Source of the DNA: Methanoculleus sp.
GTDB taxonomy: Archaea; Halobacteriota; Methanomicrobia; Methanomicrobiales; Methanoculleaceae
Direction of reading: 5' to 3'
NCBI RefSeq assembly: GCF_030019085.1
Contig: NZ_JASEFJ010000019.1
Span: forward strand, 1 to 32,564
Length of the DNA stretch: 32,564 nt
Shown: piece after piece, positions 2,976 to 32,386 of the stretch
Layout of the letters: every line of letters starts with the position of its first letter
Position numbering within the stretch: the stretch's first letter is position 1
Notes under the pieces: generated by a model
The model's database searches: none
Told to the model about the DNA's origin: nothing
Seen by the model: only the letters and a program-made list of their open reading frames with translations
Translations under genes and position numbers: made by a program

Positions 2976-3398
2976 TTACGCTATTGCCTCCTTCTCCTTT
3001 TCAAAGACTCTCCCCAGGGCAAAGAGGTCGCTTCTGCTGAGATAATGCCTGGCCCAGGCAAAGATATTATCCTCCTCCTGGGCGAAATGCCCCTCGACCC
3101 AGTCGCGGAGATCGGCAAGCGCTTCCATCCAGGCCTCGTCTCCCTCTGGAAGCACCTCGAAACGTTCAAGTCTCTCGCGTATGGTTACGTGCTCATCAAG
3201 CGACACCTCAACCTCCTCCGGTGCCACCTCCCTCAGGCGCAGGTAAAGGGTGGCCTCCTCCGCAATAAGGTGTGCCAGTAGTTCGCGGTGGAGCGTTATG
3301 CATCGGACATCCCTGCTCTTGGGGTCGTGTTCAATCTCGTTGAATAGCACTCTGATCAGATCGTGATCGTCCTCTATCAGTTCAAGGATCTGTGGCAT
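2976..3398 (-). CDS. hemerythrin HHE-domain protein
   Basis: This 140-aa helical protein has the spaced His/Glu pattern of the hemerythrin HHE cation-binding family: H12 in EDDHDL, H43 and E47 in LAHLIAEEATLY, H70 in EHVTIRERL, H104 and E108 in GHFAQEEDNIF. Such proteins bind a non-haem di-iron centre and in anaerobes are linked to oxygen or nitrosative stress sensing, or to iron handling. The ATG at 3398 is preceded by GGAGGAGAGACA, a strong ribosome binding site. A TATA-like GTTAAATTC lies about 38 nt upstream. It is monocistronic by spacing. The substrate (O2, NO or iron) cannot be read from sequence. Confidence 0.85.
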   Translation of the reverse strand: MPQILELIEDDHDLIRVLFNEIEHDPKSRDVRCITLHRELLAHLIAEEATLYLRLREVAPEEVEVSLDEHVTIRERLERFEVLPEGDEAWMEALADLRDWVEGHFAQEEDNIFAWARHYLSRSDLFALGRVFEKEKEAIA

Positions 3399-4989: not shown

Positions 4990-6498
4990 TTACCGCGCCT
5001 CTCGTGGCAGGTAACGCTCAATAGGGCCTACCGCCTCAAGCCTCCCTTCCGGGGAGAGGACGGATATCGCGCCGTGGCCGCCTGCGACCAGGCACCTGTG
5101 GCCGGTCGGGGCAAGTTCTTCATCCAGGTCCCGGATCAGTTTGAGCAGTGCTGTGCGCTCCTGGCGTGCGCGTTCGCTATCGACGTTGACCGATGTCACC
5201 AGGAAGTCGGCCAGGGAGTTGTAGCGTTTCCGGTCGTCATCCAGACTTCCGAAGTTGATCAGGGTATCTGCGGTGAAGATCATCCCGTGGGTGTGGCAGA
5301 GGAAGTAGACCTGACCGTGCATGTGCCCGCCAAGTGATTCGAGGACCTCAAACTCCAGGTCATGGATGGCAAACCGCGCTATAACTGGAAAGATCGAGCG
5401 GCTGGCAAGCCTCTCCGTCGGGAAGGTCTCCGGGTTTTCTGGCGGCGTGAAGCGTGAGAAGAGGTTTATGACCGTTGTGTAGACCTCCTCCAGGATCGAG
5501 GACTCGCTGCGCGACCCATAGGCCCGGTTCGCGCGCCGGATGATCTCGACCGACCACGGGTGGGTAAAGGCTTTCGCGTCGAAGAACCCTGCCGCCCCAC
5601 AGTGGTCGGCGTCGGCGTGGGTGATGTAGATCCGCCCCGGGTCTCCGATCCCGTAGTGCTGGAACATCCGGAGGACGTCCTGGTGGTATATCCCGTAACC
5701 GGTATCTATCATGACGCTCTCCTCAGGGGCGTTGAGCAGGAATATATTCCCACCGCCAGGCATCTGGAAACAGATGATTTCAACGGCGTTGCCAAGCGGG
5801 ATACGCTGGACGTCCGCGTAGAACCGGTCGCCTGTGGTTTCACGAAGCGTCTTTCCAGTGCGCAGGATGCAATCAAAGACCTCTTTTGGGTCCTGGCCCA
5901 GGTTGTTGAGTTCCTGGACGATGTGGTTGATGTCCTGGAGGAGAGAGAGGAGGAATTCATCCTCCGCCGTCCCGATATGTCCCCGCAACGCCTGGGCGAA
6001 CCTGACGTAAAAGACGGTGTCGTCGAGTTTCTCGCCGGTTGTGTCGTACTCAAGGATCTCCAGGCGGTAGCGTGATTTCAACCGGTCGAGCAGGCTATCG
6101 ACGATCTCGCTCTCCTCGACGCTCAAACTGATGGTGACCCTGCCGGGGTCTGACCGCCGCTCGTCAAAGTCGATGTAGGCGATGTTTGCCCCGGCACCGG
6201 TGATGTAGGTGAGGAGGTCAAAGAGGGAACCGGGTTCGTGCGGGAGGTATACGGAGAACTTGAGGAAGCCCGGCGTCGGCAGCGATTCCTGGAGGTAGCC
6301 GATGGCGTGGAGGTCTTCCTTTATCCTGGCATAACCCTCCGGTGTTGCAACCACTTCGAAGAATACCGTGGCGGGATCGATCCGGCGGTCGTACTGGATG
6401 CGGATGATGTTGCCAGAGTATGACTTGATGATCTCGGCCGCGCGGTGCAGCGCCCCGGGCCGGTCGGGCATCCTGGCTATGAAAGAGTATTTATTCAC
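4990..6498 (-). CDS. tandem ACT-domain / metallo-beta-lactamase-fold protein
   Basis: This 502-aa two-part protein has two ACT-like regulatory domains (residues about 4-70 and 80-150, the first with the DRPGALHRAAEII signature), a helical linker, then a metallo-beta-lactamase fold (about 240-500). The metal motif reads HADADH, so the usual second His of HxHxDH is Asp. Further candidate ligands are in GGHMHG, FTADTL and GGHGA. The carboxylate recalls the HxExDH of flavodiiron proteins, but no flavodoxin domain is fused. ACT domains usually bind amino acids, so ligand-controlled hydrolase or redox activity is a reasonable inference. Start choice: AGGTGA lies 5 nt before the GTG at 6498; a GTG at 6507 is in frame but overlaps that ribosome binding site. 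A TATAAA element (about 6520) is very close to the start. Confidence 0.75.
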   Translation of the reverse strand: MNKYSFIARMPDRPGALHRAAEIIKSYSGNIIRIQYDRRIDPATVFFEVVATPEGYARIKEDLHAIGYLQESLPTPGFLKFSVYLPHEPGSLFDLLTYITGAGANIAYIDFDERRSDPGRVTISLSVEESEIVDSLLDRLKSRYRLEILEYDTTGEKLDDTVFYVRFAQALRGHIGTAEDEFLLSLLQDINHIVQELNNLGQDPKEVFDCILRTGKTLRETTGDRFYADVQRIPLGNAVEIICFQMPGGGNIFLLNAPEESVMIDTGYGIYHQDVLRMFQHYGIGDPGRIYITHADADHCGAAGFFDAKAFTHPWSVEIIRRANRAYGSRSESSILEEVYTTVINLFSRFTPPENPETFPTERLASRSIFPVIARFAIHDLEFEVLESLGGHMHGQVYFLCHTHGMIFTADTLINFGSLDDDRKRYNSLADFLVTSVNVDSERARQERTALLKLIRDLDEELAPTGHRCLVAGGHGAISVLSPEGRLEAVGPIERYLPREAR

Positions 6499-6507
6499 CC
6501 GGTTCAC

Positions 6508-6978: not shown

Positions 6979-7506
6979 TCAGGAGTTCCCGGATCTCATC
7001 GCCGCCGCTGCAAGCTTCGGGAGTATCGCCCGCGCCCAGGAACGGACAGCATCCAGGTTTCGGAAGTCTCCTGGCTTTACCCGTATGAGTTTGATGATGG
7101 CACGGTCAGGACCGGATAGGCAACCGGCATCCAGTTTTCCCGGGAAGATACCGACCTCCACCGGGTTTACAAGCATCCTTACCTCGTCCATCGAGGCTTC
7201 CGCTCTTCTCAGGCTCTCGGCGCTCTCGCTCGCCACCGTGAGCCCAACGGCAAAGCAGGCGACAGGGATGGTTCGCAGGTAATGCTGATAGCGTTCGACA
7301 AAGACCCGGGCTTCCGGTAGCCACCTTCCCATGTAGATCGGGCTCCCTATGACCGCCGCCCTGTAAGGAGAAAGGTCGCGGACCTCGTTAACCGGCAGGA
7401 GATCGACCTTTTCACCGGCCTTACGGAGTTCATCACCGATCGCCTCCGCCACCTCAGCAGTCGAACCGTAACGGGTGGCGTAGGCAACAAGAATCCTGTC
7501 TGCCAT
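6979..7506 (-). CDS. flavodoxin-domain protein (HemG-like flavodoxin_5)
   Basis: This 175-aa single-domain flavodoxin-fold protein has the FMN phosphate loop near the N-terminus (YATRYGSTAEVAEAIG, residues about 9-24). The AAVIGSPIYMGRWLPEARVFVE segment (about 50-71) is typical of the flavodoxin_5 group, which includes menaquinone-dependent protoporphyrinogen oxidases and many archaeal flavodoxins. An electron-transfer role is likely; the partner is unknown, and haem synthesis should not be assumed in a methanogen. The ATG at 7506 is preceded by GGAGAAGAGGTAT. A TATA-like AATTAATAAG lies near 7535-7545. It stands alone, with long gaps on both sides. Confidence 0.82.
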   Translation of the reverse strand: MADRILVAYATRYGSTAEVAEAIGDELRKAGEKVDLLPVNEVRDLSPYRAAVIGSPIYMGRWLPEARVFVERYQHYLRTIPVACFAVGLTVASESAESLRRAEASMDEVRMLVNPVEVGIFPGKLDAGCLSGPDRAIIKLIRVKPGDFRNLDAVRSWARAILPKLAAAAMRSGNS

Positions 7507-28453: not shown

Positions 28454-29236
28454 TCACAGGGCCTGCACAAGAGAGTTTCGGGTGACGATACCAACGATCT
28501 TGCCGTTCTGCTTCACAGGCACAGAGCTGATATTCTTCTTGAGCATCAGGTCGATGACATCGGAGACGTCCGCGTCCGCGCCCACTGTGATCAGCGGCGT
28601 GCTCATGATGTCCCGCACCAGCAGGTTCCTGATCCGGTAGTCCTGGTGCGTCCCCTCCACAAGGTCCTTTAGAGCATGTAGCGCTCTTGCGACATCGGTC
28701 TCTGTAACAATCCCGATAACGGCGTCCCCCTCCTCGACGATGAACCGGTAGATCCCCTCATCAAGCATCCTCCGGCGGAGGTGAACTGCACGTTCGTCTC
28801 CCTGGATGGTGTATACCGGCTCCATGACATCGGTGATTCCACCCGCCGGCCGGAGCACCTTCAGAAGGTCGCCAGCGGTCACCTGCCCGATGAGGCGGTG
28901 ATCGGAGTCAAAAACGACGACGACCTTGTAGTGCTGGAGCAGCGGTACCAGAACATCGATGCTCTGGTCGGGATAGACTGATGTGAAGTTCTCCTCGACA
29001 GTGTTTGCGACATGGATGGATGTGGCCTTCAGCGACTGAGTCTTCCTGCTCCCGAGCGTCTCGGCGATCGCCGCGCGGGAAGTCGTACCGATGACCGTGC
29101 CATTGTTGGTCACGATGAGCGGGTCGACACCCTCATCGAGCATCTTATCGAGCGCCTCGCTGATAAAGGCGGACTTTGCGATGGTAACTGGTTTGGCCAT
29201 CACATCTTTGACGAGTAACTGAAATTTATCGCTCAT
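28454..29236 (-). CDS. CBS-domain protein (four CBS motifs), fifth gene of the CBS operon
   Basis: This 260-aa protein has four CBS motifs in two Bateman modules: about 10-65 (VKDVMAKPVTIAKSAFISEALDKMLDEGVDPLIVTNNGTVIGTTS), 75-128, 135-190 and 205-260 (VRDIMSTPLITVGADADVSDVIDLM). There is no catalytic, transport or DNA-binding domain, so it is probably a stand-alone nucleotide or S-adenosyl-ligand sensor acting on a partner. The second motif is the most divergent. Its ATG overlaps the upstream stop by 4 nt (ATGA), and it is last in the operon. Confidence 0.88.
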   Translation of the reverse strand: MSDKFQLLVKDVMAKPVTIAKSAFISEALDKMLDEGVDPLIVTNNGTVIGTTSRAAIAETLGSRKTQSLKATSIHVANTVEENFTSVYPDQSIDVLVPLLQHYKVVVVFDSDHRLIGQVTAGDLLKVLRPAGGITDVMEPVYTIQGDERAVHLRRRMLDEGIYRFIVEEGDAVIGIVTETDVARALHALKDLVEGTHQDYRIRNLLVRDIMSTPLITVGADADVSDVIDLMLKKNISSVPVKQNGKIVGIVTRNSLVQAL

Positions 29237-30072
29237 TTTGCCACTTCCTTTATGATATCATCTCTCTTGAGCATACCCCGGATCTCGCCATCCTCCACGA
29301 CAACAAGGCTGTTAATCTGGTTTTCCAGCATCAGCCCGACTGCATCCTGCAGAGACGCGTCGGGAGGAATGGTGATGACCGGTCTGCTCATCACGTCTTC
29401 TGCAACTGCTGATACCTCAACGACGTACCTGTAACGTTTCTGCCCTGCCGGCTCGCTTTTTCGCAGGAGCGTAACCTCTTTTCTCGGTATATCCATCCGC
29501 TCGTTCAGGTAGTCGTAAAATGCGAGATTGGTCTCTGTAATTATGCCGGCAAGGCTTCCATCGTCGTTGACAACAATAATCTTATCGTCTTTTGATCTCA
29601 TCGTATCGATGATATGGTCAAGCGAGTGGTAGCGGTTGACCGTGACGGCTTCGCTCATCACATCGCCAACGGTGGCTTTTAGACCGCGCAGATATGCCGA
29701 TCGCATGAGATCCCGTTTGGTGACGATCCCGGCTATCGTGCCGTTTTCAACGACAGGAAGCCCGGAGATGTTCTTATCCAGCATTATGGCTGCAATATCG
29801 CGCGTGCTGGTTGCAGGGCTCACAGTGATCGGGTCGGGCACCATCAGAACTTCGACCGGAACCCTGTCGATCGGCCGCCGCCGCCATACCGGTTCCGCCT
29901 GCCTGAGTCGATAGGCGACATCCTTCTTGGTGATGATACCCCTGAGTTCCTCCTCCTCCATCACTGGCAGCCTGGATACGCGGTGTTTTAGCATAAGGTT
30001 GCGCGCATAGGCCACGTTATCGGTAGTTTTAACGACGTATACCGGGGATGACATCAAATCAACAGCACGCAT
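29233..30072 (-). CDS. CBS-domain protein (four CBS motifs), fourth gene of the CBS operon
   Basis: This 279-aa protein has four CBS motifs: AVDLMSSPVYVVKTTDNVAYA at the N-terminus, VEVLMVPDPITVSPATSTRDI (about 72), VGDVMSEAVTVNRYHSLDHI (about 136) and AEDVMSRPVITIPPDASLQDA (about 222). A linker of about 30 residues with basic and aromatic residues (KSEPAGQKRYRYVVEVS) separates motifs 3 and 4. I prefer the ATG at 30072, because GGAGTGATGA, a close match to the anti-Shine-Dalgarno target, lies just before it. An ATG at 30081 and a GTG at 30084 are alternatives overlapping the upstream stop. Confidence 0.88.
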   Translation of the reverse strand: MRAVDLMSSPVYVVKTTDNVAYARNLMLKHRVSRLPVMEEEELRGIITKKDVAYRLRQAEPVWRRRPIDRVPVEVLMVPDPITVSPATSTRDIAAIMLDKNISGLPVVENGTIAGIVTKRDLMRSAYLRGLKATVGDVMSEAVTVNRYHSLDHIIDTMRSKDDKIIVVNDDGSLAGIITETNLAFYDYLNERMDIPRKEVTLLRKSEPAGQKRYRYVVEVSAVAEDVMSRPVITIPPDASLQDAVGLMLENQINSLVVVEDGEIRGMLKRDDIIKEVAK

Positions 30073-30080
30073 GCCTTTCA

Positions 30081-31028
30081 TCACTCCATGGAAAATGCTT
30101 TTACCAGATCGTATTCGGTCACGAGTCCCACAAGATGCGAGTCCTCGATCACAGGGAGCGCTCCCACCTGCCGGCGGAGCATCTCGAGAGCGACGTCATG
30201 TATGTTTTTATCCGGTGTTGTGGTGTAGAGTTCGCCGGAGAGGAGCGAACGCACCGGTGCGCTCATCACCTCGGCAGCGTCCCCTGTTGTCAGGTGCTCA
30301 AAGGCTTTACCCTCCCCCAGGTAGCGCATGATGTCTGTGGCGGTGACGATCCCGCAGAGGACATCATCTGTGACGACCGGGAGTCGCCGGAACCTGCACT
30401 TCACCATCTTCTTGGAGACCTCGCTGATGGGGGTCTCGGGCGTGGTTACACGAACCGAGGAGGTCATTATATCCTCAACCCTGTATCGCGAGGGCCCGGT
30501 TGCGAGCATCATCATCACGTCACGCTCGGTCACGATACCCTTCAACTCTCCGTTATTGTCGGTGATGGGTATTCCGCCTATTCTACGGTTGACGATAATA
30601 TCGACCGCATCGGCGATACTCCCGGTAACCGGCATGGTTACCGGGTGTTCGGTCATGATCTCGTGAAGTTCCTCGTTGATGGCGGCAAGGAAATTTCCCC
30701 CGTGTTTAACCTGGACCAGGTTATACTTGTCTCCGCCGCCCATGAGATCTATGATATCGCTGCCGGTCACTATCCCGCGCAGGCGGTGCGTCCCGGCATC
30801 GACGATCGGCAGCCTCCGGAACCCTTCCCTGGTCATGATCTCCACCGCCTGGATGATCGTTGTGGTCTGATGCGCAACAACAACGTCCCTGGTGGCAATT
30901 GCCATGATCTCGCCTTCGTGTTCGGCGATCCTGGTCTTAAAGTCGATCGGGCCGCGGTCGTGTTTACCTGGCATCTTGAGGAGTCTATCAGCCGGTCTCT
31001 TCTCCGAATTATTGCGATTAGGTTGCAT
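30081..31028 (-). CDS. CBS-domain protein (four CBS motifs), third gene of the CBS operon
   Basis: This 315-aa protein has an N-terminal charged tail of about 40 residues, then four CBS motifs beginning near residues 41 (AIATRDVVVAHQTTTIIQA), 120 (LHEIMTEHPVTMPVTGSI), 182 (VEDIMTSSVRVTTPETPI) and 250 (AAEVMSAPVRSLLSGELY). The stretch between motifs 1 and 2 (MGGGDKYNLVQVKHGGNFLAAINE) is conserved-looking and unlike a CBS core. Its own ribosome binding site AGGAGG is 6 nt before the ATG at 31028, and there is a gap of about 40 nt to the upstream gene. No effector domain is fused. Confidence 0.88.
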   Translation of the reverse strand: MQPNRNNSEKRPADRLLKMPGKHDRGPIDFKTRIAEHEGEIMAIATRDVVVAHQTTTIIQAVEIMTREGFRRLPIVDAGTHRLRGIVTGSDIIDLMGGGDKYNLVQVKHGGNFLAAINEELHEIMTEHPVTMPVTGSIADAVDIIVNRRIGGIPITDNNGELKGIVTERDVMMMLATGPSRYRVEDIMTSSVRVTTPETPISEVSKKMVKCRFRRLPVVTDDVLCGIVTATDIMRYLGEGKAFEHLTTGDAAEVMSAPVRSLLSGELYTTTPDKNIHDVALEMLRRQVGALPVIEDSHLVGLVTEYDLVKAFSME

Positions 31029-31067
31029 AATATCCCTCCTTTCTGGGGTAAGTTCCTGAAATATTTT

Positions 31068-31826
31068 TTATCTGGACTGCGTGTAGCCCAGGATGTCGTG
31101 ACGGTCTATAACACCGACAAGTCTCTTCTTCTCGTCAACGACTGGCAGCATGCTGACGTCGTGCTCGACCATCAACCGGCCCGCCGTTGCCAGAGAATCG
31201 TCTGCTGTCACGGTGATAACGGGCGTTGTCATAACCCGCTCCACTGTGGTGTCTGCCCGGTTTTTCAGTGATGTGCGCACATTTCCGGCGCGCAGTAGAT
31301 CTTTACGGGATATGATACCTATGACCCTGCCGCCATCCACCACCGGGAACGAGTTAAAGCCGCTCGTGATGATCAGGGAGTATATGCGGTTTACAGGGTC
31401 ATCTGGAGAGCATGTGACCGGGTGGTGCGACATTGCGTCACGTACCTTGCTGTGGTTGACACGATGGGAGAGGAGAACTGGAAAGATCTCTGAGAATAGC
31501 ACCCCTCCAAGGTAGGTTGAATCTTCGTCAACTACAGCCGCGCTGTTTGTGCGGGCGTTCAGTATGGCGGTACTGACATCTGGAAGGGGCGTGTCCGGGG
31601 TGACCTTTGCAGCCTCCCGGACAAACCCCTCGACAGTGATGTTTGACTTGGTGTCGACAACCCGCAGGACATCGGAGATGTCGAGGTAGCCCAGCAGGTG
31701 GTCCTTTACGTCCACTATGTAGACTTCGCGAAATACGTCGTCACGGAGTATGCTGCGTGCTTTCGTGACATACTCATCGTAGCGCAGCGCGGGTATCTCA
31801 ACCATCAGGTCTGCGGCCACCATCAT
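31068..31826 (-). CDS. CBS-domain protein (four CBS motifs), second gene of the CBS operon
   Basis: This 252-aa protein has two well-kept C-terminal CBS motifs (VRDAMSHHPVTCSPDDPVN, about 128, and VERVMTTPVITVTADDSLATA, about 193, ending GVIDRHDILGY). The two N-terminal units are degenerate (ADLMVEIPALRYDEYVTKARSIL and VEGFVREAAKVTPDTPLPDV) and may have lost ligand binding. The ATG at 31826 overlaps the stop of the first gene (ATGA); a second ATG follows directly. No other domain is visible. Confidence 0.87.
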   Translation of the reverse strand: MMVAADLMVEIPALRYDEYVTKARSILRDDVFREVYIVDVKDHLLGYLDISDVLRVVDTKSNITVEGFVREAAKVTPDTPLPDVSTAILNARTNSAAVVDEDSTYLGGVLFSEIFPVLLSHRVNHSKVRDAMSHHPVTCSPDDPVNRIYSLIITSGFNSFPVVDGGRVIGIISRKDLLRAGNVRTSLKNRADTTVERVMTTPVITVTADDSLATAGRLMVEHDVSMLPVVDEKKRLVGVIDRHDILGYTQSR

Positions 31827-32386
31827 AGTAACTGTTCCTCCTCGCGGCAGGCGGGACAGAGCATGAGGTTGTCGACACGCGACAGTTCGTCTGACATGTT
31901 ACCACATCGGTCGCAGAGGCCCATAGCATACTCCTCTTCGCGATTAATTTCTATGAGATCGGCCAGCAGTTCGTTTACTTCTGTCGCGACGGTGAGTATG
32001 TCCCTCACGGTCACAATCCCGATGACCATCTGGTCTTCGACCACAGGGAGCCTGCGTACGCGGTGCTTTACCATCATTGCCGCGGCGTCCTCGACCAGTT
32101 TGTCGGCACCGATCGTGATCAGCGGGGTGCTCATGACCTCGCTTACGCGGATCTCACCTGGCTTCAGGTTCTTTGCAACAACCTTGCAGTTGATATCCTC
32201 CTCCGTGACTATTCCGGTGGGGAGGCTGTTTTGCAATACAATGCAACTACCGACCCCGGCACGGCACATGGTCTGTGCCGCCCGGGCAACGGTCTCTCCC
32301 ACATCGATTGTCGCTGGATGAGTCTGCATGACCTCCTTTAGAGGTATGCGTGTCTCGAAGCGGATGGCATTGCTATTGTTCATCAT
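31823..32386 (-). CDS. CBS pair with C-terminal zinc ribbon, first gene of the CBS operon
   Basis: This 187-aa protein has one Bateman module (LKEVMQTHPATIDVGETVARA, about 16, and VSEVMSTPLITIGADKLVEDA, about 82) followed by a helix and a C-terminal zinc ribbon, CDRCGNMSDEL...LMLCPACREEEQ, with four Cys in two CxxC pairs. The ribbon could bind protein or nucleic acid and makes this the only gene of the five with an added domain. The ATG at 32386 (or 32383) has AGGAGAATCCC upstream. It is first in the operon, behind the TATA box at 32453-32462. Confidence 0.88.
   Translation of the reverse strand: MMNNSNAIRFETRIPLKEVMQTHPATIDVGETVARAAQTMCRAGVGSCIVLQNSLPTGIVTEEDINCKVVAKNLKPGEIRVSEVMSTPLITIGADKLVEDAAAMMVKHRVRRLPVVEDQMVIGIVTVRDILTVATEVNELLADLIEINREEEYAMGLCDRCGNMSDELSRVDNLMLCPACREEEQLL

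Follow-up and report, generated by a model that had tools for sequence, protein, structure and literature searches.

What reaction is carried out by a protein in which two ACT domains are followed by a metallo-beta-lactamase (MBL) domain whose metal motif carries aspartate in place of the second histidine, and might that reaction answer to amino acids? A protein of this kind is encoded in the window (the whole stretch of 32,564 nucleotides of Methanoculleus DNA analysed here), and its sequence, predicted structure, relatives and surroundings were examined with this question in mind. We hypothesize that it is an amino-acid-gated dinuclear metal hydrolase, a reading to which we give a probability of roughly 0.68.

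Domain layout and predicted structure

The start of the 505-residue protein is the same in aligned relatives. The gene and the features on which the discussion depends are as follows.

4990..6507 (-): whole ACT-ACT-helical linker-MBL gene; 505 aa, GTG start, stop at 4990-4992
6292..6495 (-): ACT domain 1, residues 5-72; Pfam ACT, strands and helices of the model, P14/G18/L20/N33 nearly invariant
6043..6270 (-): ACT domain 2, residues 80-155; Pfam ACT_4 over 86-145, structure matches to 3mwb and 9d2t
5818..6042 (-): helical linker, residues 156-230, with helices 163-178, 183-202 and 207-223; AlphaFold model, pLDDT about 70-92
4993..5817 (-): MBL domain, residues 231-505; Pfam Lactamase_B, structure match to 2zo4
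5602..5619 (-): metal motif H297-A-D299-A-D301-H302; invariant in 136/136 homologues
5323..5325 (-): H395, predicted metal ligand in a GGH motif; 135/136
5266..5268 (-): D414, predicted bridging ligand; 135/136, one gap
5074..5076 (-): H478, predicted metal ligand in a GGHG motif; 134/136, two gaps

Pfam recognized ACT over residues 10-69 (E = 2.6e-10, 40.3 bits against a curated cut-off of 27, in two stretches), ACT_4 over residues 86-145, under its own cut-off, and Lactamase_B over residues 250-470 (E = 2.1e-13, 51.1 bits against a curated cut-off of 22.7); the helical linker (residues 156-230) was without a Pfam match. Among 30 aligned members, Lactamase_B was found in all 30 and ACT in 25 (Pfam, E ≤ 0.01). 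An NCBIfam search with the protein returned no family above its cut-off, the sub-threshold matches including threonine ammonia-lyase, over the ACT part, and hydroxyacylglutathione hydrolase, over residues 378-420. The AlphaFold model of the whole protein (alignment of 30 members, mean pLDDT 85.7) consists of two beta-alpha-beta-beta-alpha-beta units, three helices (163-223) and an MBL fold, and the ACT pair modelled by itself with AlphaFold (pLDDT 87.0) again gave two beta-alpha-beta-beta-alpha-beta units. The second of these matched the ACT domain of prephenate dehydratase (3mwb; Z 10.3, 82 residues, 3.2 Å) and the regulatory domain of threonine deaminase (9d2t; Z 9.9, 74 residues, 1.9 Å); since ferredoxin-like folds unrelated to ACT scored just below these matches, the ACT assignment is based on sequence and fold jointly. 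The MBL part matched 2zo4 (Z 19.4, 201 residues, 3.1 Å; VIA-align) and also many beta-lactamases, with Z about 19 to BcII. Pfam and the AlphaFold models therefore agree with the initial annotation, which had read the gene as two ACT domains fused to an MBL fold; the outcome that it had named as fatal, ACT-like regions proving to be unrelated folds, was not seen, the ACT profile scoring above cut-off and the fold being that of ACT.

The family is real and conserved, and it is unnamed by any whole-protein Pfam or NCBIfam model. Literature searches on the fusion of an ACT domain with a metallo-beta-lactamase or MBL fold found no paper on such a fusion; in the relevant passages of one report the two domains belong to different proteins (PMC7285479).

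Metal ligands, ACT loops and the proposed mechanism

Conservation was assessed on 189 matching ORFs from loci L001-L199, reduced to 136 by the removal of identical rows, with shorter fragments excluded. None of the 136 distinct homologues, rows down to 25% identity included, departs from H297, D299, D301 and H302. The His, Asp and His ligands of MBL motifs 3-5 are all present as H395 (135/136, the exception being Tyr), D414 (135/136, with one gap) and H478 (134/136, with two gaps), which completes the seven metal-ligand positions of an MBL. The substitution of Asp for the second His (HADADH), to which attention had been drawn earlier, is found within the motif THADADH at residues 296-302; the canonical HxHxDH is absent from the ACT-MBL family, HxDxDH occurs in 136/136, and on this sequence record HxDxDH is no chance variant.

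The ACT part is present (the row begins within the first 60 query residues) in 125 of the 136 homologues, the other 11 being truncated copies or MBL-only paralogues of a single genus (g13). Within the ACT-bearing rows the ACT loop residues P14 (123/125), G18 (122/125) and N33 (123/125) are strongly conserved, as are G93 (124/125), L95 (123/125) and N108 (114/125) of the second unit. Because these ligand-loop residues are conserved, the amino-acid control suggested in the initial annotation is plausible from sequence, and we judge it likely. The MBL-only paralogues of g13 (L058, L059, L061, L067, L068, L072 and L074) number up to several per genome and keep HxDxDH, and ACT control is thus not essential to the MBL fold. 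A conserved, Arg/Glu-rich insert at residues 326-351 (consensus NRAYGSRSExSILEEVYTTMINLF), of partly lower pLDDT, suggests a small charged metabolite as the substrate.

We propose, by analogy with published sites, that one divalent ion would be held by H297, D299, H395 and D414 and a second by D301, H302, D414 and H478, and that the two ions (Mn, Zn or Fe(II)) would activate water for hydrolysis. The ACT pair may bind an amino acid or an end product, the resulting signal would pass through the helical linker to gate the catalytic pocket, and the insert at residues 326-351 could act as a lid for a charged substrate.

Three other accounts of the metal site have to be set against this hydrolase. 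The initial annotation had pointed out that a carboxylate is known at this place in flavodiiron proteins, which is indeed so: these proteins combine an MBL domain with a flavodoxin-like domain, and the position is that of Glu81 in a ligand set of His79, Glu81, Asp83, His84, His147, Asp166 and His227 (PMC13133992). It had gone on to conceive of a flavodiiron-like di-iron redox enzyme under amino-acid control, which would accord with the carboxylate at the same position and an otherwise identical ligand set, with weak matches of 15 of 30 members to Pfam ODP (PF19583, the flavodiiron MBL family; E ≤ 0.01, best 2.2e-6), and with a Flavodoxin_5 gene (6979-7506, minus strand) lying about 470 bases upstream of the ACT-MBL gene in the window. 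We nevertheless consider such an enzyme unlikely, and this part of the initial annotation is not upheld. The residue is Asp in 136/136 and never Glu; a flavodoxin domain was matched by Pfam neither in the window protein nor in the aligned members; a flavodoxin gene lies near the target in only 10 of 118 loci, with no conserved redox partner; and of the 11 MBL proteins in the source genome (eight with HxHxDH, two with HxExDH and the ACT-MBL protein alone with HxDxDH) the two HxExDH proteins are flavodiiron proteins already, matching both ODP (E = 3.2e-26 and 1.5e-20) and Flavodoxin_1 (E = 1.7e-4, below cut-off, and 3.5e-18). The window protein has no ODP match at E ≤ 1, and since ODP is also matched (2.2e-6) by an ordinary HxHxDH protein from this genome, the ODP matches among the aligned members probably reflect the superfamily. 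Profile comparison favours a glyoxalase-II-type hydrolase: by hhalign, the family profile aligned through motifs 2 to 4 with an HxHxDH protein of the same genome (probability 92.5, E = 4.8e-7), labelled glyoxalase-II-type by inspection of its sequence (Pfam matches it to Lactamase_B), whereas the profile's alignments with the two flavodiiron proteins (probabilities 47 and 45, E = 1.9e-4 and 2.2e-4) covered motifs 1-2 only.

Nor does a carboxylate at this position in itself indicate iron redox chemistry, because the HxDxDH precedents are hydrolases. In a ComEC domain from M. glycerini, a nuclease, H598, D600, D602 and H603 belong to a site with two Mn ions, and the D600A change lowers the rate about 5-fold while most other ligand changes leave the enzyme virtually inactive (PMC12455585); modelling likewise placed a conserved Asp of ComEC where the template has His87 (PMC5031224), and Y2-AiiA, a putative lactonase, also has HxDxDH (PMC6146095). 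The ComEC motif is thus a known variant within the fold, so that the missing HxHxDH does not exclude an MBL fold. The same motif would suit a nuclease or phosphodiesterase like dinuclear ComEC or RNase J/Z that responds to amino-acid supply; however, Pfam showed neither a beta-CASP nor an OB nor any other nucleic-acid domain in the protein or its aligned members, PDB profile matches to RNase J and ComEC were weak and limited to motifs 1-2, and we hold this to be very improbable. Least probable of all is a catalytically dead MBL domain retained as a scaffold or sensor, for which one could cite the lack of a known substrate, but which is at odds with the strong constraint on every metal-ligand position.

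Distribution, history and gene neighbourhood

At E ≤ 1e-10 the ACT-MBL gene was detected in 205 of the 232 class genomes (128 of the 135 good ones) and, at the same threshold, in 126 of the 390 genomes of a phylum sample, namely 103 of the 106 belonging to the order and 23 elsewhere; order-level core gene is an apt description. The 23 carriers outside the order belong to two genera of one other family, which we infer from named contigs and the tree to be the Methanosarcinaceae. A search through named genome contigs yielded 166 confirmed relatives, the best 80 of which come, among archaea, from Methanoculleus, Methanoregula, Methanofollis, Methanolinea, Methanosarcina and Methanomassiliicoccales and, among bacteria, from Desulfofervidaceae, Thermodesulfobacteriales and Desulfobacterales. 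Carriage was 10/297 genomes (one with a fragment) in the phylum to which one bacterial carrier belongs and 8/145 in that of one Methanomassiliicoccales carrier. The earlier statement that ACT-MBL fusions are uncommon therefore fits these two other phyla and fails within the order, where the fusion is near-universal. A gene that is mostly single-copy and present in nearly all members of the order, in other methanogens and in some bacteria is likely to have a central role.

In a tree of 58 chosen rows (two divergent bacterial rows, L184 and L186, were left out, having given a very long branch in a preliminary tree), the seven bacterial rows group together (support 98) and adjoin those from Methanomassiliicoccales (87); a further branch (94) holds the Methanosarcina-type rows. 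The sequences thus indicate that the gene has probably moved between lineages. Bacterial carriage looks real because the bacterial rows have their own supported branch (98) and because one carrier genome (G726) is a single contig of 2322224 bases. Two copies from a MAG named Thermoplasmata (L095 and L106) were placed beside Methanoregula-like rows and are probably misbinned. Relics of the gene were seen in two genomes: in G001 (L223, 6814-7002) residues 6-66 persist with a stop, leaving only the start of ACT 1 directly before a gene that by eye resembles carA, and in G082 (L224, 10137-10658) residues 131-454 are missing.

Gene calling on the window and 120 loci, 121 stretches in all, recovered the target in 118, among which no neighbour was conserved across lineages or pointed to a pathway. 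Neighbours resembling aminotransferases, SIS-domain proteins and M42 peptidases, recognized by eye from the starts of their sequences, occur mostly in one group of genera. Cluster c0, which at first seemed to be an upstream partner in 19 loci, was rejected as a clustering artefact; its proteins do not resemble the target at E < 1. In the source genome a hemerythrin-domain gene (2976-3398, minus strand) lies near the locus, and five adjacent CBS-domain genes occupy 28454-32386 of the window on the same (minus) strand:

28454-29236 (-): CBS-domain gene; Pfam CBS
29233-30084 (-): CBS-domain gene; Pfam CBS
30081-31028 (-): CBS-domain gene; Pfam CBS
31068-31826 (-): CBS-domain gene; Pfam CBS
31823-32386 (-): CBS-domain gene; recognized by eye only

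A possible phosphoserine phosphatase function and comparison with known systems

A more specific possibility is that the protein is a serine-gated phosphoserine phosphatase which, built on an HxDxDH MBL fold, replaces a missing HAD-type SerB. Mycobacterial SerB2 provides a known example of an ACT pair joined to a phosphatase. Canonical SerB (TIGR00338, E ≤ 1e-12) was found in none of the 106 order genomes (G000 is an example) as against 251 of the 284 others in the phylum sample, so that there is either an order-wide gap or a phosphoserine phosphatase that goes unrecognised. A search scoring all candidates placed none of 41 relatives over the SerB cut-off, its remaining matches in these being long ORFs of P-type ATPase size, judged by eye, and small ORFs. 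Full-length SerA (TIGR01327) was over cut-off in 47 of 48 selected genomes (36 of the order, three Methanosarcina-type and nine others), including 35 of the 36 from the order; the sole exception, G001, has a mere relic of the ACT-MBL gene, a co-loss that is suggestive, as one event noticed after the fact. Bacterial carriers of the ACT-MBL gene had no SerB match (0/10) and, where tested, had SerA (6/6).

The SerA/SerB profile accordingly fits a replacement of SerB within the order, though not a strict one-for-one exchange. All 23 Methanosarcina-type carriers also have SerB; in Thermoplasmatota a SerB-like HAD protein occurs in 11/11 carriers (below cut-off) and in 14/19 non-carriers, nearly all of these proteins scoring below cut-off; and 16 of 20 bacterial non-carriers are likewise without SerB (four have a match). 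Moreover, other small HAD proteins are present in these genomes, the substrates of MBL enzymes are mostly diesters, thioesters or lactones, and the species are related, so that the counts represent few events and a Fisher value, which takes species as independent, is purely descriptive. Methanogens require phosphoserine for tRNA-dependent cysteine synthesis, which SerA may serve, and serine may also come from glycine (PMC5120207); SerA without SerB is for these reasons not proof of a gap. Weighing all this, we regard the replacement of SerB as unlikely.

A literature search on phosphoserine phosphatase in Methanomicrobiales found nothing relevant. In the sulfate reducer Desulfovibrio vulgaris the missing phosphoserine phosphatase is an acknowledged gap (PMC5764234), and GapMind records serine gaps for the same species but gave no match to names in Methano- (PMC7311316). 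Were the phosphatase function true, the SerB gap would be closed for an entire order of methanogens, and perhaps for some thermophilic bacteria of the sulfate-reducing type, and Methanosarcina would carry an ACT-MBL phosphatase beside SerB. The order-wide occurrence of SerA without canonical SerB offers a concrete and cheap test of one possible function.

The amino-acid-gated dinuclear metal hydrolase that we favour, with its invariant HxDxDH, would broaden the known range both of the MBL fold and of ACT control. The SerB2-type phosphoserine phosphatases also have two ACT domains ahead of a hydrolase, but their catalytic domain is of the HAD type with no MBL, whereas that of the ACT-MBL protein is an MBL. 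The ACT-regulated enzymes IlvA (threonine dehydratase) and prephenate dehydratase, to which the ACT pair was most similar in sequence and structure, share its fold and loop and differ in their catalytic domains. Flavodiiron proteins have in common with the ACT-MBL protein the carboxylate at the second ligand position and the remaining ligands, yet theirs is Glu, accompanied by an FMN flavodoxin core, where the ACT-MBL protein has Asp and is without that core. The ComEC MBL-like nuclease domain agrees in HxDxDH, with Asp at the second His, and its site is dinuclear; ComEC is, however, a membrane DNA-uptake protein without ACT domains, and its sequence similarity is weak and local (E 0.12-0.18). 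Hydrolases of the glyoxalase II/TTHA1429 (2zo4) type share the fold (Z 19.4), the ligand positions and motifs 3 and 4, but have HxHxDH, in contrast to the HxDxDH of the ACT-MBL protein, which also has the ACT pair and the helical linker ahead of its MBL domain.
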